A stretch of 37,535 nt of DNA, from NCBI GenBank assembly GCA_021813325.1, contig JAKALA010000040.1:1-37535 (forward strand), written 5' to 3'. Shown here piece by piece: positions 6,401 to 37,320 of the stretch (position 1 is the stretch's first letter; every line of letters starts with the position of its first letter). Both the position numbers and the translations under genes were made by a program. Under the pieces are notes generated by a model. The model worked only from the letters and a program-made list of their open reading frames with translations, made no database searches and was not told where the DNA came from. The DNA comes from a bacterium. GTDB lineage: Bacteria > Verrucomicrobiota > Verrucomicrobiia > Limisphaerales > UBA11358.

Positions 6401-9400
6401 GGCACCACCAGCGGATACAATGACATCATGGATTATACCGGTGGCAACCGCGATTTGGGACAGCCCATTATTCAATATTACAACAACGTGTTCATCGGGG
6501 CCACGGATGACATTCTTGATCTGGACGGAACGGATGCGTGGATTGAGGGAAACATCTTTCTGCATTCGCACAAGAATGGCTCGCCGGACAGTTCCAGTGC
6601 GATCTCCGGCGGAAACTATGATTTTGGCGGCAGCGTGGGCGTGCGGACTTCGGAAATCACCGTCATTCGGAACATTTTCTTCGATTGCGATCAGGCGGCC
6701 ACCGCCAAGGAAGGCAACTTCTTCACGTTTTTAAACAACACCATCGTGCATACCACCAAAACCGGTGGAGTGGATACGGCTTCCGGCGTGGTGAATCTCG
6801 GCGATGCGGGCACCGCTTACGGCGCGGGTTATTATCTCGAAGGCAATATCATTGAAGATGCGGAAAGTCTGATGCGCAATTACAGCAACTCGATGGCCAC
6901 GGTGACCTTCACGAACAATTTGATGTCGTTGAGTTGGGAGGGGCCCGGTGGTGGCAATTCCACCAATAATCCGCAGTTGAAATACGTTCCGCAAGTAGCT
7001 GAAACGGACTTTCAAGATTGGCTCTCGGCGCAGGTCCTGTGGAGTTGGTTCAGCTTGTTGCCGGGATCGCCCGCGCATGGCATCGGGCCAAACGGCGTGG
7101 ACATGGGGGCGGTGATTTCCGGCGGTGCTTCCATCAGCGGTGTTCCCAGCGGAATCACGGCTGCAACCAGTGCCAATTTGGTCGTGGGCCCGCTGCGGAC
7201 GGGAAATGGCATTCCGACGGCTGGTTTTCCGAATGGCTCGGGTTACACCAGTTACAAATGGCGTTTGGACGGCGGCGCTTGGAGCGCGGAAACCCCCATT
7301 GCTACGCCGATTATGTTGAGCGGGCTCGCGAACGGACCGCATTATGTGGAGGTCACCGGCAGGCAGGATGCAGACACTTATCAGGATGATCCGGAGCTGG
7401 GCACCAATGCCGTGGTCAGCCGGACCACGACCTGGACGGTGAATACCAATCTGCACCGGGTGGTGATCAACGAATTGCTGGCGGATAATCGCAGCGCCTG
7501 GCATGTCGGCGAAAACACTCCCGATGTCGTTGAGCTTTTCAATCCCGGCGCCACGGCCATGGATTTGTCCGGCATGGGGCTGACGGATGATCCGGCCAAT
7601 AGCTTCAAATTTACTTTTCCGCCCGGCACATCGCTGAATGGCGGGGAATATCTTGTGCTGGTGGCCGGCACCGGCAGTGGCCCCAATCTTTATACGGGTT
7701 TGAAATTGAACAAAGATGGCGGCTCGCTTTCGTTGTATGCCGCGGCGGCGGCTGGCGGAGCGTTGCTGGATTCCGTCAGCTACGGACCGCAGTTGACCGA
7801 TTATTCCATTGGCCGGTTGGCCGATGGGAGCTGGAATCTCACGGTTCCAACTTTGGGCAGCGCCAATGTTGCGGCTCCCGTCGGCGACGTGCAGCAATTG
7901 AAATTAAACGAATGGCTGGCGGCTTCGCTTGTCCGCGACGACTTTGTGGAACTTTACAACGGCGACTCGCTGCCGGTGAATCTTGGCGGATGCTATTTGA
8001 GCGAAGTGCCGGACACCTGGCCGGCGCGGTTTCAAGTGGCCCCGCTCAGTTTCATTCCGGCCAAAGGCGAATTGGTGTATGTCGCCGATGGCAATCCCGA
8101 CAACGGCCCGCGGCATCTTAATTTTAGCCTGGCACAAGAATGGGGCACGCTGGGCCTGTTTGCTCGGGATTTGAGCCTGTTGGATCGAATTTTCTACGGG
8201 CCGCAAACGGCGGAAATCTCCATGGGCCGCACGCCCAACGGCGGCGACACGTTGACGTTTTTGAACCCGCCCACCCCCGGCTCGGGCAACCCGGGCGTCA
8301 CCGGCTCCTGCACGGTGACCAATTTGACCATCAGCTTGATGGCCTACACCCAGGCGTGGAAATATAATCAATCCAACAATCTGGATGGCATTGCCTGGTA
8401 TGCGACAAATTACAACGACAGTCTCTGGCAGGGGCCGGGCGAAGGTTTACTGGCGTATGAAAATAATTCAGCCATCACACCGCTGATTCATACGACATTG
8501 TTGAATCCACGGTCTTCGCCACCCGGATTAGTTTCCGGTCACGCCTATTATTTCCGAACCGCAGTTGTGGTCACCAACGATCTTTCCGGCTACACGTTGA
8601 CCGCAAAGATGCGGCTGGATGATTGCGGCGTCATTTACATCAATGGAGTGGAGTTTTACCGGCCGCGAATGCCCTCGGGAACCATTTTGAACTCCACCTA
8701 TGGCGGCGGCGCCGTGGGTTCCAATACCGAGGCTGACATGGACGAATTATTCACGATCCCGTCCGATTGGCTCCACCTTGGAACGAATGTCATCGCCGTG
8801 GAAGTTCATCAGATTAGTTCCACCAGCAGTGACATTGTTTGGGGCATGGGGCTGGACGCCACGGCCTACATCACCAATTGCGCTTCCGCGGTGGTGGTTT
8901 TGAACGAAGTCATGGCCAACAATCGGTCCTACACGAACAGCGACGGATCGGTGACCGACTGGGTGGAACTTTACAATCCCACCTCGCTGCCATTCGATCT
9001 CTCGGGAACCAGCCTCAGCGATGATCCAGGCAATCCACGACGCTGGGTGTTTCCGTCCGGGGCATGGCTGAACGCCAGCAATTACCTGGTGGTAAAATGC
9101 GACGGTAATTCACCTGCAAGTTCAGTGAACGCTCCGTTGATGAATACGGGGTTCGGGCTGCGCGGCGGCGGTGGGGCGGTTTATCTTTATGACGCAAGTG
9201 CGTCGCTGCTGGACGCGGTTTCATATGGCTCGCAGGCCGCAGATTTCACGATCGCGCGGCTGCCCAATGGCACGGGCGATTGGAACCTGGCTTTGCCGAC
9301 GCCGACCAGCGGAAACATTGCCACGGTGCCAGGCGACGCTGCGGCAGTTCGGATCAACGAATGGGCGGCGAGTGTTGCCAATGGACCGGACTGGTTTGAA

Positions 9401-11191
9401 TTGTTTAATCCAAATCCGCAACCGGTGGCTTTGGGCGGCTACTATTTGACCGACAAATTGAGCAATCATACCAAGCATTTGATCGCTCCGTTGACGTTTG
9501 TGGGCGTCGGCGATGGCGGATATTCCACGTTCATTGCCGATAATGATCCCTCACAAGGCGCCGACCACGTGAGCTTTTCTTTGGATGCGGCTGGCGAAGC
9601 CATTGGCTTGTTTACGCCCGATGCCGCCACGGCGGTGGACACGGTTTCGTTTGGTCTCCAGGGGGAAAATATTTCGGAGGGCAGGTTGCCGGACGGTGGC
9701 GCGACGCGGGTGTTCTTCACCAGTCCGACACCCGGCGAGGCGAACTGGCTGCCCATGACTAACATTGTGATCAATGAACTTTTGTCGCACACGGATCTGC
9801 CGTTGGCAGATGCCATTGAACTGCACAATACCAGTGCCGCGCCGGTGGACATCAGCGGATGGTATCTCAGCGATTCCAAAAATAATTTGCGGAAATACAA
9901 GTTCCCCGCCGGGACCGTCCTGCCGGCTGGCGGTTATCACGTGGTTTATGAGAATCAATTCAATCCCCAGCCGCTCACGTCGGCGAGTTTTTCCTTCAAT
10001 TCCGCCCAAGGCGATGATGCCTGGGTGATGGCTGTCGATACCAACGGAGCCGCCACGGGCTATCGCGATTGGGAGAAGTTTGGCCCGCAATTTAACGGGG
10101 TTTCATTTGGACGAGTTCAGACCAGTGTGGGTGTGGATTTCGTGGCGTTGGCGGACTTAAGTTTTGGAACCGCTGTTCGCGCATCCAGTCCGACCAATCA
10201 ACTGGATTTGTTTCGCACGGGCCTGGGGGCACCCAATGCCGGGGCTTGGGTTGGACCGGTGGTGTTCAGCGAAATCATGTATCATCCGCCGCCGATTGGG
10301 ACGAATGATGACACGCAAAATGAATTTATTGAACTGCATAATGTCACGGCGCAAGCTTTGCCATTATTTGATCCTCAATCTCCGACCAACACCTGGCGTT
10401 TGCGCGGCGTCGTGAATTTTAATTTCGCTCCGAACACCGCCATTCCAGCCGACGGATTCTTGTTGGTGGTTGGCTTTGATCCCGCCACCAATGCGGCTGC
10501 GCTCGCAACGTTCCGTGGCAAATATGGAACCAATGGCACGCTGGTCGGCCCTTGGTCCGGCAAATTGTCCAACAACGGCGAGGCGCTTGAATTGCTGGCT
10601 CCCGATCATCCGCAAACGACCGGGCCGGACATTGGTTTGGTTCCGTATGTGACCATCGAACGTGTGGTTTATAGCAATGCGGCGCCGTGGGCTGTGGCTG
10701 CCAATGGCACCGGGTTTTCTTTGCAGCGACTCAACTTTGTGGCCTACGGCAACGAGCCTACGAACTGGCTGGCCTCAGGGCCGAATGCCGGGACTTCTGG
10801 CGTGCTAGATTCGGATGGCGACGGTTTGCCTGATGCCTGGGAAGATGCGCATGGGCTGAACACGTTTGCCAATGACGCCGCACTGGATTCCGATCACGAC
10901 GGTTTTTCAAACTGGCAGGAATACCAGGCGGGCACCGACCCGCAAAACAACGCCAGCGATTTGCGATTTGAAGGCGTTGACTCGGCGTCCGATGGAAATG
11001 ACATCCGTTTTATTGCTCAATCGGGCCACAGTTATACGATTCAATTCTCGGAATCGCTGGCGGATGGAACCTGGCAAAAGCTCGCCGACGTGGCGGCGGA
11101 AAATGTTTCGAGGGTGGTGCATATCAAGGATTCCATTGGTTCGGGAGATGATTTGCGATTTTATCGCCTGGTAACGCCGGCGTTGCCGTAA
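3446..11191 (+). CDS. Giant secreted lamin-tail / CotH-like / beta-helix protein (2581 aa)
   Basis: N-terminal signal sequence (MRKKMLRLGG, then a hydrophobic run to about residue 26; an LLGC at 19-22 could be a lipobox). Domains by eye: lamin-tail domain (LTD) 1 at about 28-125; a CotH-kinase-like region at about 334-720, with INHDLDTVLG near 623 as the likely metal-binding motif; a parallel beta-helix at about 826-1180 starting at IPSGVTLTIEPGTTIYLG; LTD2 about 1338; LTD3 about 1482; a galactose-binding-like jelly roll about 1625-1810; LTD4 about 1815; LTD5 about 1965; LTD6 about 2105; LTD7 about 2270-2430; a Ca-binding DSDGDGLPDAWE repeat pair at about 2454-2505; and a C-terminal beta region ending LRFYRLVTP. 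LTD repeats begin with forms of VINELLADN and contain VELYNP. It is probably exported and surface-bound; the substrate is unknown. Such multi-LTD proteins are common in Verrucomicrobia and Planctomycetes. Confidence 0.85.
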   Translation: MRKKMLRLGGNFTIAMFTLLGCGVVFGQVRINEIMFHAAPAVPEDPGKEWVELYNAGTNGVDLNGWRFSKGIAYSFTNVNLPAHGYWVVAANVAAFQADYPGVTNVAGGWSGKLSNSGEKIELQDNLGQVADTVAYASDGDWALIREGENYPGQTAWWRGWDWTNAADGGGRSMELRHAAFSNNQGQNWSASLVAGGTPGRENSTATNDLPPMILNMQHLPAIPRFTNTVTVTAQIVDELPASVNVQLFSRVDGAATFKITPMFDDGAHGDGLANDGYYGAVLPAQADKTIVEFYVSATDAAGHQRTWPPPTDDSGTQGANALYQVDNSTYTGNQPIYRFIVTASEWNAWLNLMNIVSNGRYSEAAMNTTVVRTDGLGTQVRYHALLRNRGAGTRAAHPHNMRLNLAADQALQGIGELDFNTRTVQSQVAGNTLFSQAGLPNAYGAPVQVRVNGSNLANAQPDGSLDSYQFGSYYCFQPYSPEWAKAHWPQDPQGNIYKGVWYQDNVQLTNGAYLQWHGTNVENYRLIYGPNGPTAYSGPYSKQSNNSQDDWSDLINLCYVLNLTPDSNYLQAVEQNVNIDEWLRYFAVNSLIINMETTLATGAGDDFSLCSGVVDSRFQLINHDLDTVLGQGDTSPDYARSIFKAADIAAVSRFLKHPDIAPRYFATLKQLADTLFSPQQIGQSLDQSLGGWVPDNYVQNLKNAAEQRRTNVLNQIPLKLTVTSSLGIVSGYPRTTASTTALTGVANAIDTKTVLVNGVEAVYTPWQGAWSATGVALSPGINRIVIQTLNTNGVEFVRTNIDIWYDKGSVASAGGTIAADTTWTAAAGPYNVTSSINIPSGVTLTIEPGTTIYLGSGVNFTVANGGRLLAEGTPNAPIRFTTSPGSGVSWGGMVIDGAVSSPETRIAYAHFEGNSTTCIEVAGGTVALDHLTFGTTTHQYLALDSASFLVSHCTFPSSTAPFELVHGTGGIKSGGHGIVRDCFFGTTSGYNDIMDYTGGNRDLGQPIIQYYNNVFIGATDDILDLDGTDAWIEGNIFLHSHKNGSPDSSSAISGGNYDFGGSVGVRTSEITVIRNIFFDCDQAATAKEGNFFTFLNNTIVHTTKTGGVDTASGVVNLGDAGTAYGAGYYLEGNIIEDAESLMRNYSNSMATVTFTNNLMSLSWEGPGGGNSTNNPQLKYVPQVAETDFQDWLSAQVLWSWFSLLPGSPAHGIGPNGVDMGAVISGGASISGVPSGITAATSANLVVGPLRTGNGIPTAGFPNGSGYTSYKWRLDGGAWSAETPIATPIMLSGLANGPHYVEVTGRQDADTYQDDPELGTNAVVSRTTTWTVNTNLHRVVINELLADNRSAWHVGENTPDVVELFNPGATAMDLSGMGLTDDPANSFKFTFPPGTSLNGGEYLVLVAGTGSGPNLYTGLKLNKDGGSLSLYAAAAAGGALLDSVSYGPQLTDYSIGRLADGSWNLTVPTLGSANVAAPVGDVQQLKLNEWLAASLVRDDFVELYNGDSLPVNLGGCYLSEVPDTWPARFQVAPLSFIPAKGELVYVADGNPDNGPRHLNFSLAQEWGTLGLFARDLSLLDRIFYGPQTAEISMGRTPNGGDTLTFLNPPTPGSGNPGVTGSCTVTNLTISLMAYTQAWKYNQSNNLDGIAWYATNYNDSLWQGPGEGLLAYENNSAITPLIHTTLLNPRSSPPGLVSGHAYYFRTAVVVTNDLSGYTLTAKMRLDDCGVIYINGVEFYRPRMPSGTILNSTYGGGAVGSNTEADMDELFTIPSDWLHLGTNVIAVEVHQISSTSSDIVWGMGLDATAYITNCASAVVVLNEVMANNRSYTNSDGSVTDWVELYNPTSLPFDLSGTSLSDDPGNPRRWVFPSGAWLNASNYLVVKCDGNSPASSVNAPLMNTGFGLRGGGGAVYLYDASASLLDAVSYGSQAADFTIARLPNGTGDWNLALPTPTSGNIATVPGDAAAVRINEWAASVANGPDWFELFNPNPQPVALGGYYLTDKLSNHTKHLIAPLTFVGVGDGGYSTFIADNDPSQGADHVSFSLDAAGEAIGLFTPDAATAVDTVSFGLQGENISEGRLPDGGATRVFFTSPTPGEANWLPMTNIVINELLSHTDLPLADAIELHNTSAAPVDISGWYLSDSKNNLRKYKFPAGTVLPAGGYHVVYENQFNPQPLTSASFSFNSAQGDDAWVMAVDTNGAATGYRDWEKFGPQFNGVSFGRVQTSVGVDFVALADLSFGTAVRASSPTNQLDLFRTGLGAPNAGAWVGPVVFSEIMYHPPPIGTNDDTQNEFIELHNVTAQALPLFDPQSPTNTWRLRGVVNFNFAPNTAIPADGFLLVVGFDPATNAAALATFRGKYGTNGTLVGPWSGKLSNNGEALELLAPDHPQTTGPDIGLVPYVTIERVVYSNAAPWAVAANGTGFSLQRLNFVAYGNEPTNWLASGPNAGTSGVLDSDGDGLPDAWEDAHGLNTFANDAALDSDHDGFSNWQEYQAGTDPQNNASDLRFEGVDSASDGNDIRFIAQSGHSYTIQFSESLADGTWQKLADVAAENVSRVVHIKDSIGSGDDLRFYRLVTPALP

Positions 11192-22774: not shown

Positions 22775-24199
22775 ATGTCCAAGCGTATTGTCATTGATCC
22801 CGTGACCCGCATCGAGGGGCACGCCAAAATCAGCATTTTCATGGACGACGCCGGCAACGTTGCCGACGCGGAGTTCCACGTCGTTGAGTTTCGCGGCTTT
22901 GAAAAGTTCTGTGAAGGTCGTCCCTACACTGAGATGCCGGGCATCACCCAGCGCATCTGCGGCATCTGCCCGATCAGCCATACCTTGGCTTCGGCCAAGG
23001 CGGGCGACGCCCTGATGTCGGTCAACATTCCGCCCGCCGCCGACAAGCTGCGCCGGTTGTTGAATCTCGGCCAGTTCATTCAGAGCCACGCCCTGAGCTT
23101 TTTTCACCTCAGCGCGCCGGACTTTTTGCTTGGCTGGGACACGCCGCCCGCCCAGCGCAACGTCTTTGGCATCATCAATTCCAACGCGGATCTGGCCCGC
23201 GCCGGCATCCGCCTCCGCCAGTTTGGCCAGGAAATTATCGAAGTGTTGGCGGGCAAAAAGGTGCATCCGGCCTGGGCGGTTCCCGGCGGTGTCCGCAGTT
23301 CCTTGACACCGGAAGGCCGGGCCAAAATCAAAGCCTGGCTCCCGGAAGCCTACGCCACGACGAAAGTTGCCTTGGATTTGTTTAAGAAAACGCTCCAGAG
23401 CCACAAGGCCGAGGTGCAGATTTTCGGCAATTTTCCGTCGCTGTTCATGGGGTTGACCACGCCCGACGGCACTTGGGAACATCACGGCAGCAAACTGCGT
23501 TTCACCGACAGCAGCGGCAGCATTATTGCCGATCAGGTGGACGTGGCGAACTACAAGGAATACATCGGTGAATCCGTGCAGAATGCCTCGTATCTTAAAT
23601 CGCCGTATTATTTGTCGCTGGGTTTCCCGGACGGAATCTACCGGGTCGGCCCGCTCGCCCGGTTGAACATTGCCGAGCAAATGGGCGTGCCGCAGGCGGA
23701 TGAAGAATTGAAGAAATTCAAGAAGCTTGGTCGCGGCGCGGTGACTTCATCGTTCCTGTATCACTACGCCCGCCTCATCGAAATCTTGGCGGCGATTGAA
23801 TACACCGAGCGCTACATGGATGACCCGGAATTGTCGAGCTCCTATCTGCGGGCCGATGCCGGCATCAACAGTTTGACCGGCGTGGGTGCCAGCGAAGCGC
23901 CCCGGGGCACGTTGTTCCACGACTACACGGTGGATCGCGAAGGACTCCTCCAAAAGGTGAACCTCATCGTGGCCACCGGCCAAAATAACTTGGCCATGAA
24001 CCAGACCGTCGCGCAGATCGCCCGGCACTACATTCGCGGCAATAACGTTTCCGAAGCCATGCTGAATCGCGTGGAGCACGGCATCCGCTGTTACGATCCG
24101 TGTCTGAGCTGTTCCACGCATGCCGTTGGCCAGATGCCGTTGCACGTTCAACTGGTCGCGCCGGATGGCCAGGTGATCAACGAAGTCATGCGTGGCTGA
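22775..24199 (+). CDS. hoxH: [NiFe] hydrogenase large subunit HoxH
   Basis: A 474-residue catalytic subunit with the Ni-Fe(CN)2CO site. Nickel ligands are paired: [10 protein letters not shown] (Cys62, Cys65) and DPCLSCSTH (Cys443, Cys446). The precursor extends 25 residues beyond His449 ([20 protein letters not shown] onwards). In this family an endopeptidase cleaves after that His, and the candidate protease is encoded directly downstream. No membrane or Tat signal is seen. Length is normal for HoxH (about 470-490). It starts at ATG 22775, 10 bases after hoxY. The hydrogenase reaction is reversible H2 oxidation, coupled to NAD+ through HoxEFU. No missing core residue is apparent by eye. Confidence 0.97.
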
Positions 24200-24773: not shown

Positions 24774-27242
24774 TTGCGTGCCCGCCGTTATCCTGTCCGC
24801 GTGACCAAACGCACGCTTTCCAATTCTGACCGGCGTCATCCTGGTCACCCAGCTTCGGTTGCCGGAAGTTCGCTGGCTAACCAAGCGCGTTTGAAGTTGG
24901 CCGTTCGCGGTATTGTGCAGGGGGTTGGGTTTCGTCCGTTTGTGTATCGGCTGGCCCAGGAATTGGCCCTGACAGGTTGGGTGAAGAATTCGCCACAAGG
25001 CGTATTCGTCGAGGTTGAGGGCCCGCCGTCACACTTGGAAGAATTCCGGTCGCGGCTGAAGACTGAAAACCCATCTGCCAGCCGCATTCATGGCCTTCAG
25101 GAATCCTGGCTTGAGCCACTGGGATTTGATCGTTTCGAAATCCGAGAAAGTGAAACCCAAGGCGACAAGTCGGTCTTGGTATTGCCGGACCTCGCGACCT
25201 GTCCTGACTGCCTTCGCGACCTGTTTGATCCCGGCAACCGCCGCCATCGGTATCCATTCACCAACTGCACCCATTGCGGACCGCGCTTCAGCATTATCGA
25301 GACCTTGCCATATGATCGCGCCAATACGGCGATGAAGCAGTTTGAAATGTGTCCCGACTGTCTCGCCGAATATCACAATCCGCGCGACCGGCGTTTCCAC
25401 GCCCAGCCCAATGCCTGTCCGGTCTGCGGCCCGCGTTTGGAATTTTGGCTGGAGGAATCGTCGAAGCAGTGCCCGGTGGCGGGTGCAGCTTTGCAAGCTG
25501 CGGTCGATGCGATTCGGCAGGGCAAAATTGTGGCGGTCAAAGGCATTGGCGGATTTCATTTGATGGCCGACGCCAGAAATGCTTCAGCGGTTCGGACATT
25601 GCGCAATCGCAAACAGCGCGAGGAAAAACCATTCGCACTGCTGTATCCTTCCCTCGCCCGGCTCAAAATGGACTGCGCGGTTTCCCCGTTGGAAGAAAAG
25701 TGGCTGCTTTCGGTTGAAGCGCCGATTGTTTTGCTGGCGCGGCTGGCCAATCCAGGCTCGGAAATCACGCCGGAAGTGGCGCCGGGTAATCCTTGTCTGG
25801 GCGTTATGCTGCCGTCCAATCCGCTGCACCATCTGCTCATGGCGGAACTTGGATTTCCAGTGGTGGCCACCAGTGGAAACCTCAGCGATGAACCAATCTG
25901 CATTGACGAACGGGAAGCCCTCGTGCGGCTGCGGAACATTGCCGATGCTTTCTTGGTTTATAACCGGCCCATCGTCCGGCACATGGACGATTCCATTTTG
26001 CGAGTGGTGTTGGGACGGGAAATTTTGACGCGTCGTGCCCGTGGATTCGCTCCACTGCCCGTGATGTTGGGAGATTTTTTGCCGCCGGATACCAAGCAAT
26101 CGGTTCTCGCGTTGGGCGCGCATTTGAAGAACGCCGTTGCGCTGGCGGTTGGCCATCAAGCTTTCATCAGCCAGCACATCGGTGATTTGGAAACGGCCGA
26201 GGCGGAACTGGCATTTCAGCGTGTGGCGGCAGATCTGCCGAGGCTTTATGAAGCTCCGCCGCAAATCGTGGTTTCCGATTTGCATCCCGATTATCTGTCA
26301 ACCAAGTATGCCGGGAAGATCGCCAAAAAAATGGGAGAAATCGGCGAGAACGATGCTGATCCCGGTTGTTCGCTCCAGACAAAGATCGGAGTGCAGCATC
26401 ATTTGGCGCACGTGCTTTCCGTCATTGCCGAACAAAACGTCGCGTTGCCTGTGGTCGGAATTGCCTGGGATGGGACCGGCTACGGAATCGATGGAACGAT
26501 TTGGGGAGGTGAGTTTTTTTGTGTGAACGGGCAGGGGGCCGAAAGGATTGCCCGATTGCGTCCGTTTCGTTTGCCCGGCGGCGATGCGGCGGTGAGGGAA
26601 CCGCGGCGGGCGGCGCTGGGATTGCTCTTTGAACTTTATGGGGAAAAGATTTTTGAACGCGTTGATTTGGCTCCCGTCGCCGCTTTTAATCCCCATGAAC
26701 TCGCCATGGTGAGATCGATGTTGAAGCGCGGCCTTAACGCGCCGCTGACCTCCAGCATCGGACGGTTGTTTGATGCGGTCGCAGCGTTGATCGGCTTGCG
26801 CCAGCACATGCACTTTGAAGGCCAGGCGGCCATGGAGCTGGAATTCATCTCGGCATGCACAAATACTGACGCCGCTTATGAATTGCGTTTGCGTGGTCCA
26901 GAAGACGCTCGCCTTGGCAAAGGGGGAATGGTATTGGATTGGCAGCCTTTGGTTGAAGCTGTTTTGGCCGATTTGCAGGCCGGCGTGGCGAGGCCGGAAG
27001 TCAGCGCCAAATTCCATAACGCACTGGTCCAGGCTGCGATTGCGGTCGCCCGGCGTGTTGGTGAATTGCGCGTGGCCATTTCCGGCGGTTGTTTTCAAAA
27101 TGGTTGCTTGTTGGAAAAATTGGTTGCCGGTTTGCGCACGGAGGGATTTGAACCGTATTGGCATCAACAGGTGCCCTGCAATGACGGTGGAATCGCCCTT
27201 GGCCAGATTTACGCCGCCACCCGGCAGATCGAATTAAAATGA
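24774..27242 (+). CDS. hypF: Carbamoyltransferase HypF
   Basis: An 822-residue cytosolic enzyme that uses carbamoyl phosphate and ATP to carbamoylate the C-terminal Cys of HypE, the source of the CN ligands. Acylphosphatase domain at about 38-125 (VRGIVQGVGFRPFVY; GWVKNSPQGV). Two zinc-finger motifs follow (CPDC...CTHCGPR; CPDC...CPVCGP), then a YrdC-like domain and a Kae1-like C-terminal domain with HHLAH, AWDGTGYGIDG and SGGCFQNG. TTG 24774 has GAGAAG five bases upstream; GTG 24801 is an alternative. About 38 residues precede the acylphosphatase fold, which is unusual and may reflect an even later true start. Catalytic segments look complete. Confidence 0.95.
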   Translation: MRARRYPVRVTKRTLSNSDRRHPGHPASVAGSSLANQARLKLAVRGIVQGVGFRPFVYRLAQELALTGWVKNSPQGVFVEVEGPPSHLEEFRSRLKTENPSASRIHGLQESWLEPLGFDRFEIRESETQGDKSVLVLPDLATCPDCLRDLFDPGNRRHRYPFTNCTHCGPRFSIIETLPYDRANTAMKQFEMCPDCLAEYHNPRDRRFHAQPNACPVCGPRLEFWLEESSKQCPVAGAALQAAVDAIRQGKIVAVKGIGGFHLMADARNASAVRTLRNRKQREEKPFALLYPSLARLKMDCAVSPLEEKWLLSVEAPIVLLARLANPGSEITPEVAPGNPCLGVMLPSNPLHHLLMAELGFPVVATSGNLSDEPICIDEREALVRLRNIADAFLVYNRPIVRHMDDSILRVVLGREILTRRARGFAPLPVMLGDFLPPDTKQSVLALGAHLKNAVALAVGHQAFISQHIGDLETAEAELAFQRVAADLPRLYEAPPQIVVSDLHPDYLSTKYAGKIAKKMGEIGENDADPGCSLQTKIGVQHHLAHVLSVIAEQNVALPVVGIAWDGTGYGIDGTIWGGEFFCVNGQGAERIARLRPFRLPGGDAAVREPRRAALGLLFELYGEKIFERVDLAPVAAFNPHELAMVRSMLKRGLNAPLTSSIGRLFDAVAALIGLRQHMHFEGQAAMELEFISACTNTDAAYELRLRGPEDARLGKGGMVLDWQPLVEAVLADLQAGVARPEVSAKFHNALVQAAIAVARRVGELRVAISGGCFQNGCLLEKLVAGLRTEGFEPYWHQQVPCNDGGIALGQIYAATRQIELK

Positions 27243-27245
27243 TTT

Positions 27246-27500
27246 ATGTGTCTAGCCATACCAGGAAAAGTCGTAAGCATCAGCGGTGACGATCCGATTA
27301 CCCGGATGGGAAAGATCGATTTCGCCGGCGTGATCAAGCAGGCCAGTCTGGCCTATGTGCCGGAAGTGGTGGTGGGCGATTATGTGATCGTGCATGTGGG
27401 ATTTGCGTTGAGCAAAGTGGATGAGGAAGAGGCCCAGAAGGTGTTCGGGTATTTGAAACAGATCGGCGAGTTGGGTGAATTGGAGGAGCCGGCGTCATGA
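27246..27500 (+). CDS. hypC: Hydrogenase assembly chaperone HypC
   Basis: An 84-residue HypC/HybG chaperone that forms a complex with HypD, carries the Fe(CN)2CO group and delivers it to the HoxH precursor. MCLAIPGKV is the family N-terminus, with the essential Cys2 after the initiator. [13 protein letters not shown] and the conserved DEEEAQ follow. The ATG is 3 bases after the hypF stop. The stop overlaps the hypD start as ATGA, indicating translational coupling with its physical partner. Size is normal for the family. Confidence 0.96.
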
Positions 27501-28606
27501 AATATCTGGATGAATACCGCGACGGCGCATTGGCGCAAAAACTGGCGGCGGAAATTCACCGAGTAACGACCAAACCATGGACAATCATGGAAGTCTGCGG
27601 AGGCCAGACCCACGCCATTGTAAAGTTTGGCATCGATGAACTCCTGCCGCAGCAGATCGAATTAATTCATGGTCCGGGCTGTCCGGTATGCGTTACGCCT
27701 CTGGAGGTGATTGACAAGGCACTGGAAATCGCCGCCCGTCCGGAAGTAATCTTTACCTCCTTTGGCGACATGTTGCGCGTTCCCGGCAGCACCACGGATT
27801 TGCTTTCCGTCAAGGCCAAAGGTGGTGATGTCCGCATCGTGTATTCGCCTTTGGATGCCGTTAAAATTGCCCGGGAAAATCCCAATAAAGAAGTCGTCTT
27901 CTTCGGCGTCGGCTTTGAGACCACCGCTCCGGCCACGGCCATGGCAGTGTATCAGGCCTCTCAGCTGGGTTTGAAAAATTTTTCCATGCTCATTTCGCAC
28001 GTGCTCGTGCCACCGGCCATTGAAGCGTTGATGTCTTCGCCCACCTGCCGGGTGCAAGGTTTTCTGGCCGCAGGACACGTCTGTGCGGTGATGGGCTATG
28101 AGGAATATTTGCCGCTGGCAAAAAAATACCGGGTGCCAATCGTTGTCACGGGGTTCGAACCACTGGACATTCTCCACGGAATTTTGATGGTGGTGCGGCA
28201 ACTGGAGGCTGGCCGGGCCGAGGTGGAGAATCAGTATGTGCGCGCCGTGAATCAGGCGGGCAACCGGACGGCCCAGGATTTGGTTAAAAAAATTTTTAAA
28301 ATTGTGCCTCGCAAATGGCGGGGCGTGGGAGAAATTCCCCAAAGCGGACTGGGGTTGGGCGATGCCTACGCCGGCTTTGACGCGGACAAAAAGTTTGGCC
28401 TGACGGATCGGTTGGTGGATGAACCGGCGGAGTGTGTTGCCGGACAAATTCTGCAGGGCTTGAAAAAGCCGCACGAATGCGGTGCGTTTGGCGGCAAATG
28501 CACTCCGGAACATCCTTTGGGCGCAACCATGGTATCCAGTGAGGGTGCCTGTGCCGCCTATTACCGGTATCGCCGGCATGAAACCATCGCCAAGTTGAAA
28601 CCCTGA
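27497..28606 (+). CDS. hypD: Hydrogenase maturation protein HypD
   Basis: A 369-residue iron-sulfur scaffold for the Fe(CN)2CO centre; it holds the iron with HypC. The Cys residues corresponding to E. coli Cys41, Cys69 and Cys72 appear as Cys34 (VCGGQTHAI), Cys62 and Cys65 ([10 protein letters not shown]). The C-terminal [4Fe-4S] ligands are the four Cys in [14 protein letters not shown] and GAC. The [17 protein letters not shown] block is typical. Length matches the family. It overlaps hypC by four bases and hypE by one (TGATG), so hypC-D-E are tightly coupled. No substitution at a key Cys is seen. Confidence 0.97.
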
Positions 28607-29658
28607 TGAACATACTGGATTTTAGTGCGACCTGTCCGGTTCCCATTGCGAAATATCCGCAAGTAATGATGGCTCATGGCGGCGGGGGAACGTTGATGCA
28701 TCAGTTGCTTCGGGATGTTTTTGGCAAAGCCTTCAGCAATCCGATACTCGATGCAGCCCATGATTCGGCTCAATTTGCCGTCCCTCCCGGCAAACTGGCG
28801 ATGACCACGGATTCTTATGTGGTTCGCCCCATTTTCTTTCCGGGCGGCGATATTGGATCCATGGCGGTTCACGGCACGGTCAATGATCTGGCCATGAGCG
28901 GTGCCCGTCCGCTTTATCTGAGTTGTGGATTTATCATCGAAGAGGGCTTGCCCATGGAAACCTTGTGGCGGGTGGTGTGTTCAATGCGTGACGCCGCGAG
29001 GCGTTGTGGCGTAAAGATTGTCACCGGCGATACCAAAGTCGTGGACAAAGGCAAAGGCGACGGCTTATTCATCAACACGACCGGGATTGGCGTCATGGAA
29101 CATTCGTTGGCTATTGGACCGCAAAATGTGCAGCCTGGCGATGCCGTCATTGTGAGTGGCGATCTTGGGCGTCACGGCATGGCCATCATGGCGGTGCGCG
29201 ACGGATTAGAGTTTGAAAGCGCCATTGAAAGCGATTCGGCGCCGGTAGTGGAACCGGTTCTGGCATTGATCAAGAGTGGCATTGCGATTCGTTGTCTGCG
29301 GGATCTTACGCGCGGCGGACTGGCCAGTGCTCTGAATGAAATTGCCGAGGCCGCCGGTGTAAAGATTGCCGTGGAGCAGAATTCAATTCCGGTTCGCCCG
29401 GATGTCAACGCCGCCTGCGAGATGCTTGGGCTGGATGCTCTGCATGTGGCCAACGAGGGCCGCTTGGTCGCGTTTGTGGCGAAGGAAGATGCCGCGAAAA
29501 CATTGAAAATTCTTGCCGGTTTTTCCGTGAGCGCAAATGCAGCCTCGATTGGCAGTGTGGTTGAAAAATCCGAGCCGTTGGTCGTTTTACGCAGCGCCAT
29601 CGGGGCCAATCGCATCTTGGATATGCCTAGCGGCGAACAACTGCCTCGGATCTGCTAA
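28606..29658 (+). CDS. hypE: Hydrogenase maturation protein HypE
   Basis: A 350-residue PurM-like ATPase that dehydrates the HypF-made thiocarboxamide to a thiocyanate and passes CN to HypD. The C-terminus is PRIC, leaving Cys350 as the carbamoylated residue, exactly as in characterised HypE. The ATP-binding part includes [29 protein letters not shown] and the [13 protein letters not shown] block; [15 protein letters not shown] follows. It overlaps hypD by one base. It is the last gene of the cluster and its stop is followed by 115 bases before the convergent aminotransferase; no strong terminator is seen there. hypA and hypB are not present in the window. Confidence 0.97.
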
Positions 29659-31178: not shown

Positions 31179-31266
31179 GCCGCTGACTTGAATGGAAAAC
31201 GGCTGTAGCACCCATGAAATAAGAAGTGGCATTTCACCGGCCATGGCATTAGTTTTCAGCCGATTC

Positions 31267-31824
31267 ATGAGCGATGTCACCCTGCTTCTTCAAGCCATGG
31301 AACGCGGCGAAGAAAAGGCCGTGGATGAATTGTTTCCACTGGTTTATGAGGAGCTTCGGAGACTGGCGCGCATTCACATGTCCAGGGAATCCGCCTGCCA
31401 TACCCTTCAACCCACGGCGTTGGTTCATGAAGCCTGGCTGAGGCTGGCCAAATCCGAGGGGCCGGGCTGGCAGGGGCAGGCCCACTTTTTTGGCGCGGCC
31501 GCCGAATCCATGCGGCGAATTTTGGTGGAAAGAGCGCGCCGGCGATTGCGCCAGAAGCGGGGCGGCGGCCAGGAAAACCTCAATGTGGATGCCCTCGAAC
31601 TGGCGCAGGCCACTCCGGATGAGAAACTGCTGCTGATCCACGAGGCGTTGAAGCAATTGGAGAAAGAGAATCCCGAACGGGCCCGGGTGGTGGTGCAAAA
31701 GTATTTTGTGGGCATGACCAACAAGGAGGTTGCCGAGCGGCTCGGCATCAGTGTGCGGACGGTGAATCGCCATTGGCTTTGTGCCAAGGCGTGGTTGTTC
31801 TGGCAATTGCAGGCCGAAATTTGA
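31267..31824 (+). CDS. ECF-type RNA polymerase sigma factor
   Basis: A 185-residue sigma factor of the TIGR02999-like group, which in several phyla is encoded beside serine/threonine kinases. ATG 31267 gives MSDVTLLLQAMERGEEKAV, the usual start for this group. An upstream ATG at 31192 would add 25 residues with no homology. Region 2: LFPLVYEELRRLARIHM, with HTLQPTALVHEAWLRL. Region 4 HTH: TNKEVAERLGISVRTVNRHW. No anti-sigma factor gene is adjacent; the kinase starts 66 bases downstream. By analogy with phosphorylation-controlled ECF sigmas (EcfP/PknT-type systems), the kinase may regulate it. This control is inferred, and no target promoter is recognised. Confidence 0.9.
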   Translation: MSDVTLLLQAMERGEEKAVDELFPLVYEELRRLARIHMSRESACHTLQPTALVHEAWLRLAKSEGPGWQGQAHFFGAAAESMRRILVERARRRLRQKRGGGQENLNVDALELAQATPDEKLLLIHEALKQLEKENPERARVVVQKYFVGMTNKEVAERLGISVRTVNRHWLCAKAWLFWQLQAEI

Positions 31825-31890
31825 TTAATCGGTCTGGAATCTGGCGTAAAAAATTGCCAGAAGGCGCATGTAACAGAAGCAGCTCATCGC

Positions 31891-34212
31891 ATGGTTGACC
31901 CGTCACAACGTCCTGGCCCGGCTTCGAACCTCAAAGACATCTTCTCCGATGAGGTTGAGGAGATTTTCTGCGCGGCCGTCGAGATGCCGGATGCGGCCAA
32001 GCGGCGTGCGTTTATTGAGCAGGCCTGCGGTGGGAATGCGAGTTTGCGGTCCAAGGTGGAGGCTTTGATGGCGTCACAGGCGGACGTGGAACGTTTTTTT
32101 CACGACAGCCATCCAGGTCCGCCAGCAAACGATTGGTCGGTTGACCGCCCTGCCGGTGATGGTCCGGCGGAAATTCTGGTCAGCGCAACCTCGGATGCGC
32201 CCGCCGGGGAAAAATTGGGCGCTTGGATTGGTCGTTACCAGTTGCTGCAAGTGATTGGTGAGGGCGGATATGGCACGGTCTGTCTGGCGGAACAGGATTT
32301 GCCGGTCCGCCGCCGGGTGGCACTGAAGATCGTCAAACTGGGAATGGACACTAAAAGCGTCATTGCCCGGTTTGAGGCGGAACGCCAAGCCCTGGCGATG
32401 ATGGATCACCCAAACATTGCCCATGTGTTCGACGCCGGGATGACTGTTACCGGGAGGCCATATTTTGTGATGGAACTGGTGCGGGGAACCAAAATCACCA
32501 CCTATTGCGATCAACATCAATTGGATCTCAACCAACGGCTGCAGCTTTTTTTTCAAGTCTGCCATGCGGTTCAACATGCGCATCAGAAAGGGATCATTCA
32601 TCGGGACATCAAGCCTTCAAACATCCTGGTAACCCTGCATGACGGCCAACCCATCCCCATGGTGATCGACTTTGGGATTGCCAAGGCCATGCAGGGGCGG
32701 CTCACGGACCAGACCATTTTTACCCCCTACGAACAGTTCATTGGAACGCCGGCATACATGAGTCCGGAGCAGGCAGAGGCCAGCCGGGCGGACGTGGATA
32801 CCCGGAGTGACATCTACAGCCTGGGAGTTCTGCTTTACGAACTGCTGACAGGCCACACCCCGTTCAATTCAACCCAACTGATCGAATCCGGTCTGGATGA
32901 AATGCGCCGCACCCTCCGTGAGCGCGAGCCTGCCCTGCCTTCCGCGGGCGTGGGCCGGCTGCCGCCGGAGGAATTGGCCCGCGCCGCGAATTGCCGTGGA
33001 GTGGCCCCGGCCAAGTTGATTGCCCTGCTCAAGCGGGATCTTGACTCGATCGTCATGAAGGCACTGGACAAAGATCCGGACCGCCGCTATGAAACGGCCA
33101 ACGGGCTGGCCATGGATCTCCACCGATATTTAAACCATGAACCGGTTTTGGCCCTGCCCGCCCGCCGCCTCTACCGGCTCCGAAAATTAGTGCGCCGCAA
33201 CAAGGTGGTATTTTTCAGCAGCACGGCGGTGGTGTTGGCGCTGGCCATCGGCCTCGGGGTCGCCTTGATGTTGCTGTTTCGCGCGCGCGCGGCCGAGCGC
33301 CAGGAGGCGCGGCTGCGCGGCATCGCCGAACGCGGTCTGACGACCGAGGCGGAACTGCGCAACCAGGCCGAGACGCGGGAGACGATCATCAAGGCGGCCC
33401 TGCTGATCAATCAGGGTTCCAATGCGGCGGCCGACAGCCTGGTGGCACAACTGCCGCTCACACAATCCACCATGGAAGGCTCCGAGGTGTTTCAAACCCT
33501 CGGCGAGTGGGATGCCCTCAACGGCCGCTGGCAGGAGGCGAAAGCCCGGTTTCGCCAGTTACAGCACGTGAGTCGCATCAACCTGCCCCAGAATGCTTCA
33601 TTGGACTGGACCAAGGCGGCCATCGCCATGATTGAGAGTAATGACCGCGAAGCCTATGCCCGTTTTTGCGCGGAAAGCATCACGAGCTTTAACGGCGTCG
33701 ATGATCCGTTGGTGGCGGGACGCGTGCTGCGAAATTGTCTGCTGGTGCCGGCGTCCCCCCATCTGATTGATGCGCTGAAGCCGCTGGCGAAGTGCGCGGG
33801 GGAAACCCTGCAAAACATTGACTTTTCTGCCAAGGTTGCCGGCTGGAAGACCCCCTGGCGTTGCGAGGTGCTGGCGCTCTGGGAATACCGGGCTGGCAAT
33901 CCCTCCGCAGCCATGGTCTGGTGCAACCGCTGCCTGAACGCGGTGGAAAAAGTGCCGGCCCGCGATGCCGCCACCGAAGCGGTGCTGGCCATGTGCCAGG
34001 CAAAGCTGGGCAAGACTGAAGATGCGCGCAACGAACTTGCCCGCGCCCGATCCCTGATTCAGCATAAATTTCAAACGCCCTTGACGCTTAACTCCACGGA
34101 TGGGGCGTGGTATGACTGGGTCTTTGCCCGCATGTTGATGAACGAGGCCACGGAATTGATCCAGCCCGAGCTGAATGAAGCCCCGCAGCAAGACTCCGGC
34201 CTGGATGAATAA
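31891..34212 (+). CDS. Transmembrane Ser/Thr protein kinase with TPR-like C-terminal part
   Basis: A 773-residue kinase. Residues about 20-70 are a helical leader (EEIFCAAVEMPDAAKRRAFI) common in Planctomycete and Verrucomicrobial kinases. The kinase domain (about 115-410) is complete: GEGGYGTV (123-130), Lys146 in VALKIVKL, HRD (237-239) in HRDIKPSNIL, DFG (260-262), GTPAYMSPEQ. One transmembrane helix lies at about 438-462 (VVFFSSTAVVLALAIGLGVA). The remaining 300 residues are helical and resemble tetratricopeptide repeats; they are probably extracytoplasmic and sense or bind a partner. The gene follows the ECF sigma gene by 66 bases on the same strand, forming a likely regulatory pair. The target is unknown. 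Confidence 0.92.
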   Translation: MVDPSQRPGPASNLKDIFSDEVEEIFCAAVEMPDAAKRRAFIEQACGGNASLRSKVEALMASQADVERFFHDSHPGPPANDWSVDRPAGDGPAEILVSATSDAPAGEKLGAWIGRYQLLQVIGEGGYGTVCLAEQDLPVRRRVALKIVKLGMDTKSVIARFEAERQALAMMDHPNIAHVFDAGMTVTGRPYFVMELVRGTKITTYCDQHQLDLNQRLQLFFQVCHAVQHAHQKGIIHRDIKPSNILVTLHDGQPIPMVIDFGIAKAMQGRLTDQTIFTPYEQFIGTPAYMSPEQAEASRADVDTRSDIYSLGVLLYELLTGHTPFNSTQLIESGLDEMRRTLREREPALPSAGVGRLPPEELARAANCRGVAPAKLIALLKRDLDSIVMKALDKDPDRRYETANGLAMDLHRYLNHEPVLALPARRLYRLRKLVRRNKVVFFSSTAVVLALAIGLGVALMLLFRARAAERQEARLRGIAERGLTTEAELRNQAETRETIIKAALLINQGSNAAADSLVAQLPLTQSTMEGSEVFQTLGEWDALNGRWQEAKARFRQLQHVSRINLPQNASLDWTKAAIAMIESNDREAYARFCAESITSFNGVDDPLVAGRVLRNCLLVPASPHLIDALKPLAKCAGETLQNIDFSAKVAGWKTPWRCEVLALWEYRAGNPSAAMVWCNRCLNAVEKVPARDAATEAVLAMCQAKLGKTEDARNELARARSLIQHKFQTPLTLNSTDGAWYDWVFARMLMNEATELIQPELNEAPQQDSGLDE

Positions 34213-34215
34213 GGG

Positions 34216-34440
34216 TTAGGCCGTCGTTTTTGTAGGCACATGCTTACAAAACAGATAAATGCCAACTGCGTCAAAAGCTAGTCCGCCAACCAGAATAGCC
34301 ATGCCCCGCAGCAACCTGTGCCGACGCAAAAGTGCCACCTCTGCATCATAAGCCGCCTTGGTCTCTGGCGTCTGAAGCTCTCGCCACGCATACAACGTGA
34401 CACGTCGATCCGCATTCCGGTAAGGCTCATCGAGAACCAA
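34216..34440 (-). CDS. Possible small membrane protein or C-terminal fragment
   Basis: A 74-residue frame from TTG 34440; the open frame extends to 34467 without a better start. It encodes a charged N-terminal half (ELQTPETKAAYDAEVALLRRH) and one transmembrane helix (MAILVGGLAFDAVGIYLF), ending KHVPTKTTA. No family is recognised. The composition looks coding, and it may be the tail of a lost larger gene. Its 3' end is convergent with the kinase gene (3 bases apart), and it lies just downstream of the GH43 gene. Confidence 0.4.
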   Translation of the reverse strand: MVLDEPYRNADRRVTLYAWRELQTPETKAAYDAEVALLRRHRLLRGMAILVGGLAFDAVGIYLFCKHVPTKTTA

Positions 34441-34521
34441 CCCGGGCCTGTAAAGCCGCGGCCAAAATCACCAATGTTTACCGGAGTTCTAAACCGGACA
34501 GCAGTGATCAACTTTGTCGAT

Positions 34522-35406
34522 TCAAGGCGCGTTATACGCTTTGAATTCCCATATGCCGGTGGGCACGGCGTGGTTGACGCTCTCGGGAAAATTGATCCGG
34601 AAATAGCGCGCTTGAACCGGCAGGTGGTCCCCTTTGGGCGACTCATAAACCGTGTCGTTCAGATGGTTGGCATAAACTTCCCATTTCGCGCCGTCAGCCG
34701 ACCACTCCAAAACATAGGGCGTTATTTCGGTCGGCAAATTGAATGAAATTTCGGTGCGTTGGACACTCTTCACCTCGCCGAGATCCACCTGCCACCACGC
34801 GGGAACGGACATCGTCAAGCCGACGTCAATGAACTGGCCGCCGCCGGTTTGTTTGCCATGCACCGCCAGACAGTTTTTGCCCGCGCGCAAGGCGGCTTTG
34901 GCCTCGGCGCTGATCTCAACCTGTTCGTAAGCCTGATTGTAACCGCCGCGTTGAGCCGCCCGGACGCCGTTGAGATAAATTTCCGCGTCGTCATCGTGAA
35001 ACATGCGCAATTGCAGCGGACGCTGTAACTCTTCCGCAGACAAATCAAATTCTTTTCGCATCCAGATATCGGAAGTGGTCCACGCGGTATGAACAATGGC
35101 GTTGGGCGTGTCCGATCGTCCGAAACCGCTTGGACCGCCCTCCCAATTGGCCGTCGCAAAGTTTTCTTTCTGCCAGTCAGCCCCCGGCTCGTTCGTCGTC
35201 CATTGCCAATTAATCGGGGTGGTTTCCGCCGTGGGCACCACGTTTTTGCCCCAGCCGGCAATCCAGCGTGTGCCGAAGCATTCATCCAACGCTTTCTCCG
35301 GTCCATAACCGGGCAGCGACGCCGAGGCCATGGCGGTTTTGCCGAAGGCGACGTTCGTGCCAGCGCATGTGCTTGGCGCCAGCAGGCCAACCCCGGTTCG
35401 CGTCGG
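34522..35406 (-). pseudogene. Severed C-terminal part of the GH43 protein
   Basis: This reads in the same frame as the GH43 gene, from directly after the TAA at 35407-35409 to the stop at 34522. It begins PTRTGVGLLAPSTCAGTNVAFGKT, the normal continuation of GH43 linkers. It then enters an F5/8 type C (discoidin) fold (EKALDECFGTRW), is interrupted by a galactose-binding-like domain of about 140 residues (WQWTTNEPGADWQKENF to GGQFIDVGL), and returns to the F5/8 fold (AWWQVDLGEVKSVQRTEI, ending TGIWEFKAYNAP). An ATG at 35331 could start a separate protein without a signal peptide, which seems unlikely to be useful. The domain calls are by eye. Confidence 0.75.
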
Positions 35407-36390
35407 TTACACCTGTTTGATCGCGCCATCGGAATTAAAGCCGATACGTTCGGCGCAGACCTGGCGATACACGTTGCCATCGCGGAACGGATCAACGCAT
35501 TCGCCCATGCGACTGCGCAAATAAATCAAAATCCATTCATCGGTGCCCGGAATTTTGAGAATATTGCCGTGGCCGGTGCCCCACAGATGATCGGCGGGAT
35601 TCGGCTCGATGATGATGTTGTTGGTCGGATAACGCCAGGGACCTTCCAGCTTGTCGCTCATCGCGTAAATGATGCGGTATTCCGCGTAGCCGTTGTTCGC
35701 GGCGGCGGCGTAATAAATACCGTTGCGCTTGAAGAGAAATCCGCCTTCCACATAGCCCTTGTGATAGTCGAGCGTGCAAACTTTGGATTCCACGCCGGAC
35801 AAATCCGGTTTCAATTTACGAATTTCCGGACGCACATTGCCAGACAGCAAATACGGCGTGCCGTCGTCATCCACGAACAGCTCCGCGTCAATGCTGCCGG
35901 AAATGGGCGCGCCGTGGTTGGCAAAGTGAAACGGGCCTTCCGGCGTATCGCCCACAGCCAGATAATTATGATCGCCATGACAGGTGAACGGGAACCAGTA
36001 TTTGCCATCGCGGAAAATCGGATGCCCCGGCGCCCAGTTCTTTTTGCCGGTGATTTCCGGAAAACTTTCGCCGGAAAAACTCCAATGCACGAAGTCCTTG
36101 GATTTCCACACCACCCAGCGTCCGGTCTCCCATCCAAAACCATCCGTGGTGGAATAAATGTAATACGTGTCGCCAAACTTCGCCAGCGAAGGATCGGCAA
36201 ACAAGCCGGGAATCAGCGGATTGCCCTCGCGCGGTCCATCGGCAAGGTTTTGATCCCCGTAATTGCCGAACGCCAGCACGCTGCCGGCGTGAGTTGAACC
36301 GCCGCAAACTGCCGCCAACAGCAGCGCCAGACTGCCGCGTAAAATCCGTTGAGATATGGCGGACTGTTTGAAGAAATGGGGGACGATCAT
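35407..36390 (-). CDS. Secreted glycoside hydrolase family 43-like protein, truncated by stop
   Basis: From ATG 36390 the product is 327 residues; a longer open frame begins at 36528 without a signal-like start. The N-terminus is a signal peptide (ILRGSLALLLAAVCGGSTHA). The five-bladed beta-propeller carries the expected acidic residues: Asp66 (LFADPSLAKFGDTYYIYST; general base), Asp168 (SIDAELFVDDDG) and Glu215 (GYVEGGFLFKRNG; general acid). The family includes arabinan and xylan hydrolases, so an extracytoplasmic polysaccharide role is likely, but the substrate is not predictable here. A TAA at 35407-35409 ends it at ...GAIKQV, while the same frame continues into carbohydrate-binding-like domains. 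The catalytic domain itself looks complete. Confidence 0.82.
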   Translation of the reverse strand: MIVPHFFKQSAISQRILRGSLALLLAAVCGGSTHAGSVLAFGNYGDQNLADGPREGNPLIPGLFADPSLAKFGDTYYIYSTTDGFGWETGRWVVWKSKDFVHWSFSGESFPEITGKKNWAPGHPIFRDGKYWFPFTCHGDHNYLAVGDTPEGPFHFANHGAPISGSIDAELFVDDDGTPYLLSGNVRPEIRKLKPDLSGVESKVCTLDYHKGYVEGGFLFKRNGIYYAAAANNGYAEYRIIYAMSDKLEGPWRYPTNNIIIEPNPADHLWGTGHGNILKIPGTDEWILIYLRSRMGECVDPFRDGNVYRQVCAERIGFNSDGAIKQV

Positions 36391-36633
36391 GATTGGGATG
36401 TTATTCCAGCGGGTTTGAAGAACAAACGCCAAAATATTGTCTGCGGCGTTTGGCGCAGGCATATCCGGCCTGCGGCAAGCTACGGCAACTTTGACCCACA
36501 GGCGATAAACAGAATGGCAGGCAGTCAATCATGTTCATTTACTTCCCACCGTGCCAGCCTCCATTGTTTATTTCGATGTTACATTGTTTTTTCGATTAAC
36601 ACCGGCACCGGGTTTGGGAGTAAAAGCGTATGA

Positions 36634-37320
36634 GTGAAGCCGCTTAAAGAAATCGCCAGTGCATGCAGAAAGTTTACTTGCCTATTGAGGGTGGTAAAAC
36701 GTGATCGCGGATGTCCTCGCGTCCGAAGCCGCTTATCACCGGAAACATTGAGCTGGGTCGGAACCAAGCTCCAGCAAGCGCGGGCAAACGGGAAAAAAGT
36801 CATTGCCTTCATGCACCACGGAGTGAGTCCGGACTTTGTCAGCCAGCCGGTTCTGTTTCCGGAGTATCTGGTGGACGATTGGCCGACGGTAAACCGGACG
36901 CTAGCCAGCGCGGGGTTGCGGGTGATTTTCACCGGCCATTATCACGCGCAGGATGCCAGTTATTTCTGTGATCAAAACGGCACCCCACTTTCACCGCTCT
37001 GCGATGTCGAAACCAGCTCGTTGATTTCCTATCCGTGTGCTTATCGCATTGTGACGGTGAAGCCGGGTAATTCCCTGGAGATCGAAAGTCCGCGGGTGAC
37101 GGAAATTAACGCGGACTTGGGCGGGTCGGATTTTCAGGATTATGCGTATGCGGATCTGGCTTCGCGATTGCCGAATTTGGCGGTCGCCCAACTGGAGAAC
37201 GGATTTGGTTTGCCGGCGGATCAAGCGCAATACCTTTCGCCTTTGGTGGTGGCTGCCCTGTTGGCGGGTTACGCCGGGGATGAGCAGCCGGATGCCCAGA
37301 CCCAGGGCGGTGCTAAATAA
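36634..37320 (+). pseudogene. Metallophosphoesterase missing its N-terminal half
   Basis: The frame opens at GTG 36634, but recognisable homology begins only at RLSPETLSWVGTKLQQA (about residue 33). It then shows the C-terminal half of a calcineurin-like fold: IAFMHHGVSPDF (His ligand), VIFTGHYHAQDASYF (GHxH ligands) and a SSLISYPCAYRIVTV beta region, ending in an Ala-rich tail. The first metal motifs (DxH, GDxxD, GNHE) are absent from the frame, and upstream DNA to 36391 shows no trace of them in any frame I could read. A 5' deletion is the simplest reading. The residues left cannot form the two-metal site, so the product is probably inactive. Its neighbours give no substrate clue. Confidence 0.7.

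Follow-up and report, generated by a model that had tools for sequence, protein, structure and literature searches.

Bacterial genes truncated by nonsense mutation are well known, and typically carry a single in-frame stop codon followed by a colinear downstream remnant. For the enzyme family concerned here, glycoside hydrolase family 43 (GH43), solved structures provide described counterparts, the best of which is 5msx (BT_3662), with a sequence E-value of 1.3e-45 and a Foldseek E-value of 9.6e-28. This likeness is that of the GH43 family, with 28% identity over the fold alignment. The gene in question lies on the minus strand of a 37,535-nucleotide stretch of bacterial DNA, the whole of which is referred to as the window. 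In it, an in-frame TAA separates a GH43 catalytic domain from a carbohydrate-binding-like region of the F5/8 type C family. The two parts descend from one polypeptide, and the tail beyond the stop bears no clear sign of further decay. A recent, real nonsense mutation in a single ancestral gene is the best explanation of this arrangement and probably the correct one.

Gene layout and intact relatives

The preliminary description had placed an in-frame TAA after GAIKQV without naming a strand, and translation of the minus strand confirms it: the frame at 36528-34522 reads ...GAIKQV-stop-PTRTGVGLLAP... (Table 1). Beyond the TAA the frame stays open for 294 sense codons, so that the 295 codons first counted hold if the terminal TGA is included. 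Base composition alone would leave 294 codons open with a chance of about 3e-5, and the homology of the downstream frame makes chance even less able to explain it. The proposed split of a GH43 protein from its carbohydrate-binding-like part is borne out by Pfam matches on either side of the stop. Upstream, Glyco_hydro_43 (PF04616) matches over profile positions 3-287 of 288 with an E-value of 1.1e-43 (150 bits, cut-off 32.2). Downstream, F5_F8_type_C (PF00754) matches in one stretch, profile positions 33-127 of 127, with an E-value of 4.2e-11 (43.5 bits against a cut-off of 28.2), and PF22633, a NedA-like galactose-binding family, matches with an E-value of 3.7e-08. A nested module of about 150 residues (about downstream residues 55-204) splits the F5/8 type C domain, and the N-terminal part of the domain, which sits ahead of this insert, is not matched by the PF00754 profile.

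Table 1. Features of the interrupted GH43 gene (positions in the window)
Feature	Position	Strand	Evidence or remark
GH43 catalytic domain, 327 aa from the ATG at 36390, with a signal-peptide-like N-terminus	35410..36390	-	Pfam PF04616; 67% identity to L039
In-frame TAA	35407..35409	-	Aligned L039 codon is AAG (Lys)
Severed C-terminus: linker, then an F5/8 type C domain interrupted by a nested module	34525..35406	-	PF00754, PF22633
TGA that closes the full-length frame of the ancestor	34522..34524	-	In the alignment, L039 stops one residue sooner

The nearest relative found, L039, is an uninterrupted frame of 611 aa on contig SDZD01000083.1 of the metagenome-assembled genome "bacterium isolate PMG_196". 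When its protein was used as a query against the window's genome, a single match was returned that covers residues 9-610 of 611 at 61% identity (860.8 bits) and contains one internal TAA. In the pairwise alignment the last 318 columns are gapless, the stop included, and a lysine codon stands opposite the TAA. Identity to L039 is 72.5% (200/276) in the mature GH43 part and 52.9% (155/293) after the stop. Much of the drop in the tail is due to the nested insert, which is 43.6% identical, while the two flanking F5/8 parts reach 64.4% and 59.6%. The nested module is common to the window and L039 (about positions 1360-1790 of the L039 locus) but absent from the more distant relatives L091, L092 and L095, as seen in the alignment, and from L093 and L094, as judged by eye. 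It is also widespread in other proteins of the genus.

In all five of these more distant relatives (L091-L095), GH43 is followed by a linker and F5/8 type C in a frame free of stops. At the position of the TAA the six tailed relatives have Lys twice (L039, L092), Thr three times (L091, L095 and, by eye, L093) and Asn once (L094, by eye), so that the earlier statement that this position is often Lys holds for two of the six but does not describe a rule. The alignment and the rate counts given below took in L039, L091, L092 and L095; L093 and L094 were read later and agree with them. Searches with tblastn of both halves against 21 GH43-bearing loci (L002-L008, L039-L047, L091-L095) found the tail in seven loci, which correspond to six distinct genes because L039 and L040 overlap, and in all six it shares the frame of the GH43 part. 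In the remaining 14 loci GH43 occurs but this tail does not. Homologues that end at the same point and are followed by an independent downstream gene were looked for in this set, and none was found. Comparison with relatives thus supports descent from a single polypeptide, broken at a position where the nearest relative has a Lys codon, and the downstream part, judged by its homology, is the severed C-terminus of that protein and not an independent gene.

Distribution and age of the interruption

Closer relatives than L039 were sought at several taxonomic levels. Only the window's own copy was returned among 49 genomes of the family (E 1e-40) and, among the best candidates, in 320 genomes of the order (E 1e-50) and in 387 genomes sampled from the phylum (E 1e-70). 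A genome_contigs scan with the GH43 part yielded a single locus, L039; being run with one protein, such a scan detects only close relatives. In the family of L039, one of three genomes was matched, and in its phylum at least one of 291, in both cases L039 itself; a class-level search with the L039 protein matched at least six of 384 genomes, the window's own included, and the other five matches are L091-L095. In the order, phylum, L039-phylum and class searches the best 3 to 6 candidates per genome were scored, and their counts are therefore lower bounds. A plasmid search returned 71 records, all below 60% identity. The downstream part alone was matched more broadly, in 24 of the 49 family genomes including the window's own.

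The phylum of L039 comprised 291 genomes under a limit of 400, whereas the window's order alone comprised 320, so L039 would belong to another phylum. A sparse distribution combined with a nearest relative in another phylum makes it likely that the GH43 gene of the window was acquired horizontally, as judged from this distribution. Such an acquisition would fit relaxed constraint on the gene.

The tail nevertheless retains the marks of a protein. Its identity to L039 at codon positions 1, 2 and 3 is 63.5, 70.6 and 43.0%, a pattern indicating selection on the encoded protein through most of the region's history, and its 294 codons contain no second stop and no frameshift. Where the other four aligned sequences are invariant, the window agrees with them in 85 of 92 columns upstream and in 41 of 49 downstream; the corresponding figures for L039 are 85 of 91 and 41 of 47. 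Counted against three outgroups, window-only and L039-only changes number 12 and 12, 11 and 10, and 8 and 14 upstream, and 14 and 11, 15 and 8, and 13 and 9 downstream. The downstream excess of window-only changes is therefore at most slight and may be read as a hint of relaxation, too small for dating. In a neutral simulation restricted to substitutions, the tail gained no new stop with a frequency of 0.47, 0.15 and 0.03 at 0.02, 0.05 and 0.1 substitutions per site, respectively. Because a second stop, a frameshift and a clear substitution excess are all lacking, the interruption is either recent or a consensus error, and on the tail-decay data the two would be inseparable.

Readings of the in-frame TAA

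Among the explanations offered in the preliminary description, a recent nonsense mutation is favoured, as all six tailed relatives are uninterrupted and in frame and the alignment with L039 is gapless across the stop. The ancestor would have been a single gene, probably for a secreted protein, that joined a GH43 catalytic domain to an F5/8 type C carbohydrate-binding-like region, and a nonsense codon would recently have arisen in the linker. Translation would then end at the TAA and yield a GH43 protein of about 327 aa before signal cleavage, leaving the last 294 codons as an untranslated remnant. A wrong assembly base would look the same, and the slight downstream excess of window-only changes does not date the event.

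A consensus or assembly error, by which the organism would have a sense codon and make the full-length enzyme, is the strongest competitor, although a rather unlikely one. The assembly is a draft in 123 contigs, the rest of the frame is intact, and no conspecific copy that could confirm the base was found in searches that may leave out records very near the window's genome. Against this, assembled drafts seldom contain consensus errors of a single base, and no excess of broken frames was seen in a scan of 437,535 bases, though the scan is a weak one. This crude scan, which returned 41 same-frame coding-like pairs, does not discriminate well; in nine pairs besides the window gene the first start codon lies at least 24 codons past the stop, and Pfam searches of five of these nine found no domain in any half. 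In the family search, three of 77 matches to the downstream part have one internal stop each. The three are L035, L032 and G032:C1:6409-6885, each with one internal TGA or TAG. Internal stops were absent from all eight GH43 matches in the window's genome (the window gene included) and from all 13 in genome G705. Taken together, these counts suggest a modest rate of interrupted frames in related drafts, with an uncertain base rate. Only general considerations favour a real nonsense mutation over a sequence error.

Far less probable is readthrough of the UAA, programmed or tolerated, which would yield mostly the short enzyme and a little of the tailed one. Two points favour it, the intact downstream frame and the C that follows the stop. 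According to PMC5289835, +4U lowers readthrough in both E. coli and yeast, +4C raises it in yeast, and UAA is the stop with the least readthrough in bacteria and eukaryotes, the last of which speaks against this reading. In addition, the stop is conserved in none of the six tailed relatives, and RNA starting at the stop is no more stably folded than shuffled sequences (z 0.64), which gives no support to an RNA stimulator of readthrough. ARAGORN names 43 tRNAs in the genome, none with a TTA, CTA or TCA anticodon, in a set that is incomplete, since some expected tRNAs (e.g. Tyr) are missing from it; an Rfam tRNA search likewise marked 43 places, with 150 of 170 first-look candidates scored and 20 not. 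Recoding of TAA was rejected, as 12 of 18 other open reading frames of the contig end in TAA, more than in any other stop (TGA 5, TAG 1); these frames were hand-picked from a mechanical list and, as some overlap, are not all genes. The programmed readthrough raised in the preliminary description, although possible, is unsupported. It is more doubtful still that the linker UAA allows a low but useful level of readthrough, by which one gene would supply both a freely diffusing GH43 enzyme and a minor substrate-anchored form.

Gene fission, with the downstream part translated separately as a stand-alone binding protein, is very improbable: an ATG-started open reading frame of 269 aa does exist inside the tail (35331-34522), but its ATG lies 25 codons past the TAA within the conserved start of the F5/8 domain, neither a signal peptide nor an obvious ribosome-binding site was seen by eye, and the in-frame fusion of the tail in all six tailed relatives, together with a first ATG inside the domain, leads to its rejection.

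Predicted product and comparison with known genes

Under a recent nonsense mutation, the truncated product would plausibly be a secreted, active, tail-less GH43 enzyme. The protein begins MIVPHFFK, and its N-terminus resembles a signal peptide when judged by eye. D66, D168 and E215, which we take to be the GH43 active-site residues (two Asp and one Glu), are invariant across the five aligned sequences, the window's included. In the predicted structure, a shallow model based on five sequences (mean pLDDT 65.2) that limits how far the truncated form can be judged, the last GH43 strand of at least three residues spans 308-316, single bridge residues occur up to 327, and a low-confidence stretch at 331-344 follows past the GH43 part. 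A stop just beyond the catalytic domain, with the presumed catalytic residues intact, makes an active tail-less enzyme plausible. L002, a paralogue in the window's genome, lacks the F5/8 tail by tblastn and has its natural end about 12 residues beyond the equivalent point, as judged by eye; tail-less GH43 proteins are thus normal. Immediately beyond the stop, the linker (PTRTGVG in the window) shows partial conservation; the truncated form would lack these residues, so that its stability is not assured and some loss is possible. The catalytic domain probably still folds and retains activity, with its tail lost; if the base is real, the sugar-binding-like tail is probably no longer made.

A promoter and terminator scan of 34200-36800 gave no promoters and four terminators against shuffle means of 1.7 and 4.1, and is uninformative. 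Elsewhere in the window, 31192-34212 holds an ECF-type sigma factor and, after it, a protein kinase that weakly matches TPR. There are also matches to a nickel-dependent hydrogenase (22775-24199), HypF (24774-27242) and HypD (27497-28606), the last followed by an AIR-synthase-type protein (28606-29658) that is perhaps HypE, and a single open frame of 2581 aa occupies 3446-11191.

For annotation, the two open reading frames belong together as a single interrupted gene and should not be listed as a GH43 enzyme and a stand-alone binding protein; beyond this, the significance is slight. If the stop is real, the locus is a minor case of a carbohydrate enzyme, apparently acquired by horizontal transfer, whose tail is lost at a domain boundary while the catalytic part may survive. 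L039 shares the domain order of the window gene, the insert within F5/8 included, and its identity extends nearly end to end; it differs in being uninterrupted, in having Lys at the stop position and in its presumed placement in another phylum. Ordinary nonsense-truncated bacterial genes show the same single in-frame stop and a remnant colinear with intact relatives, and the window gene does not differ from them in kind, its stop falling at a domain boundary.
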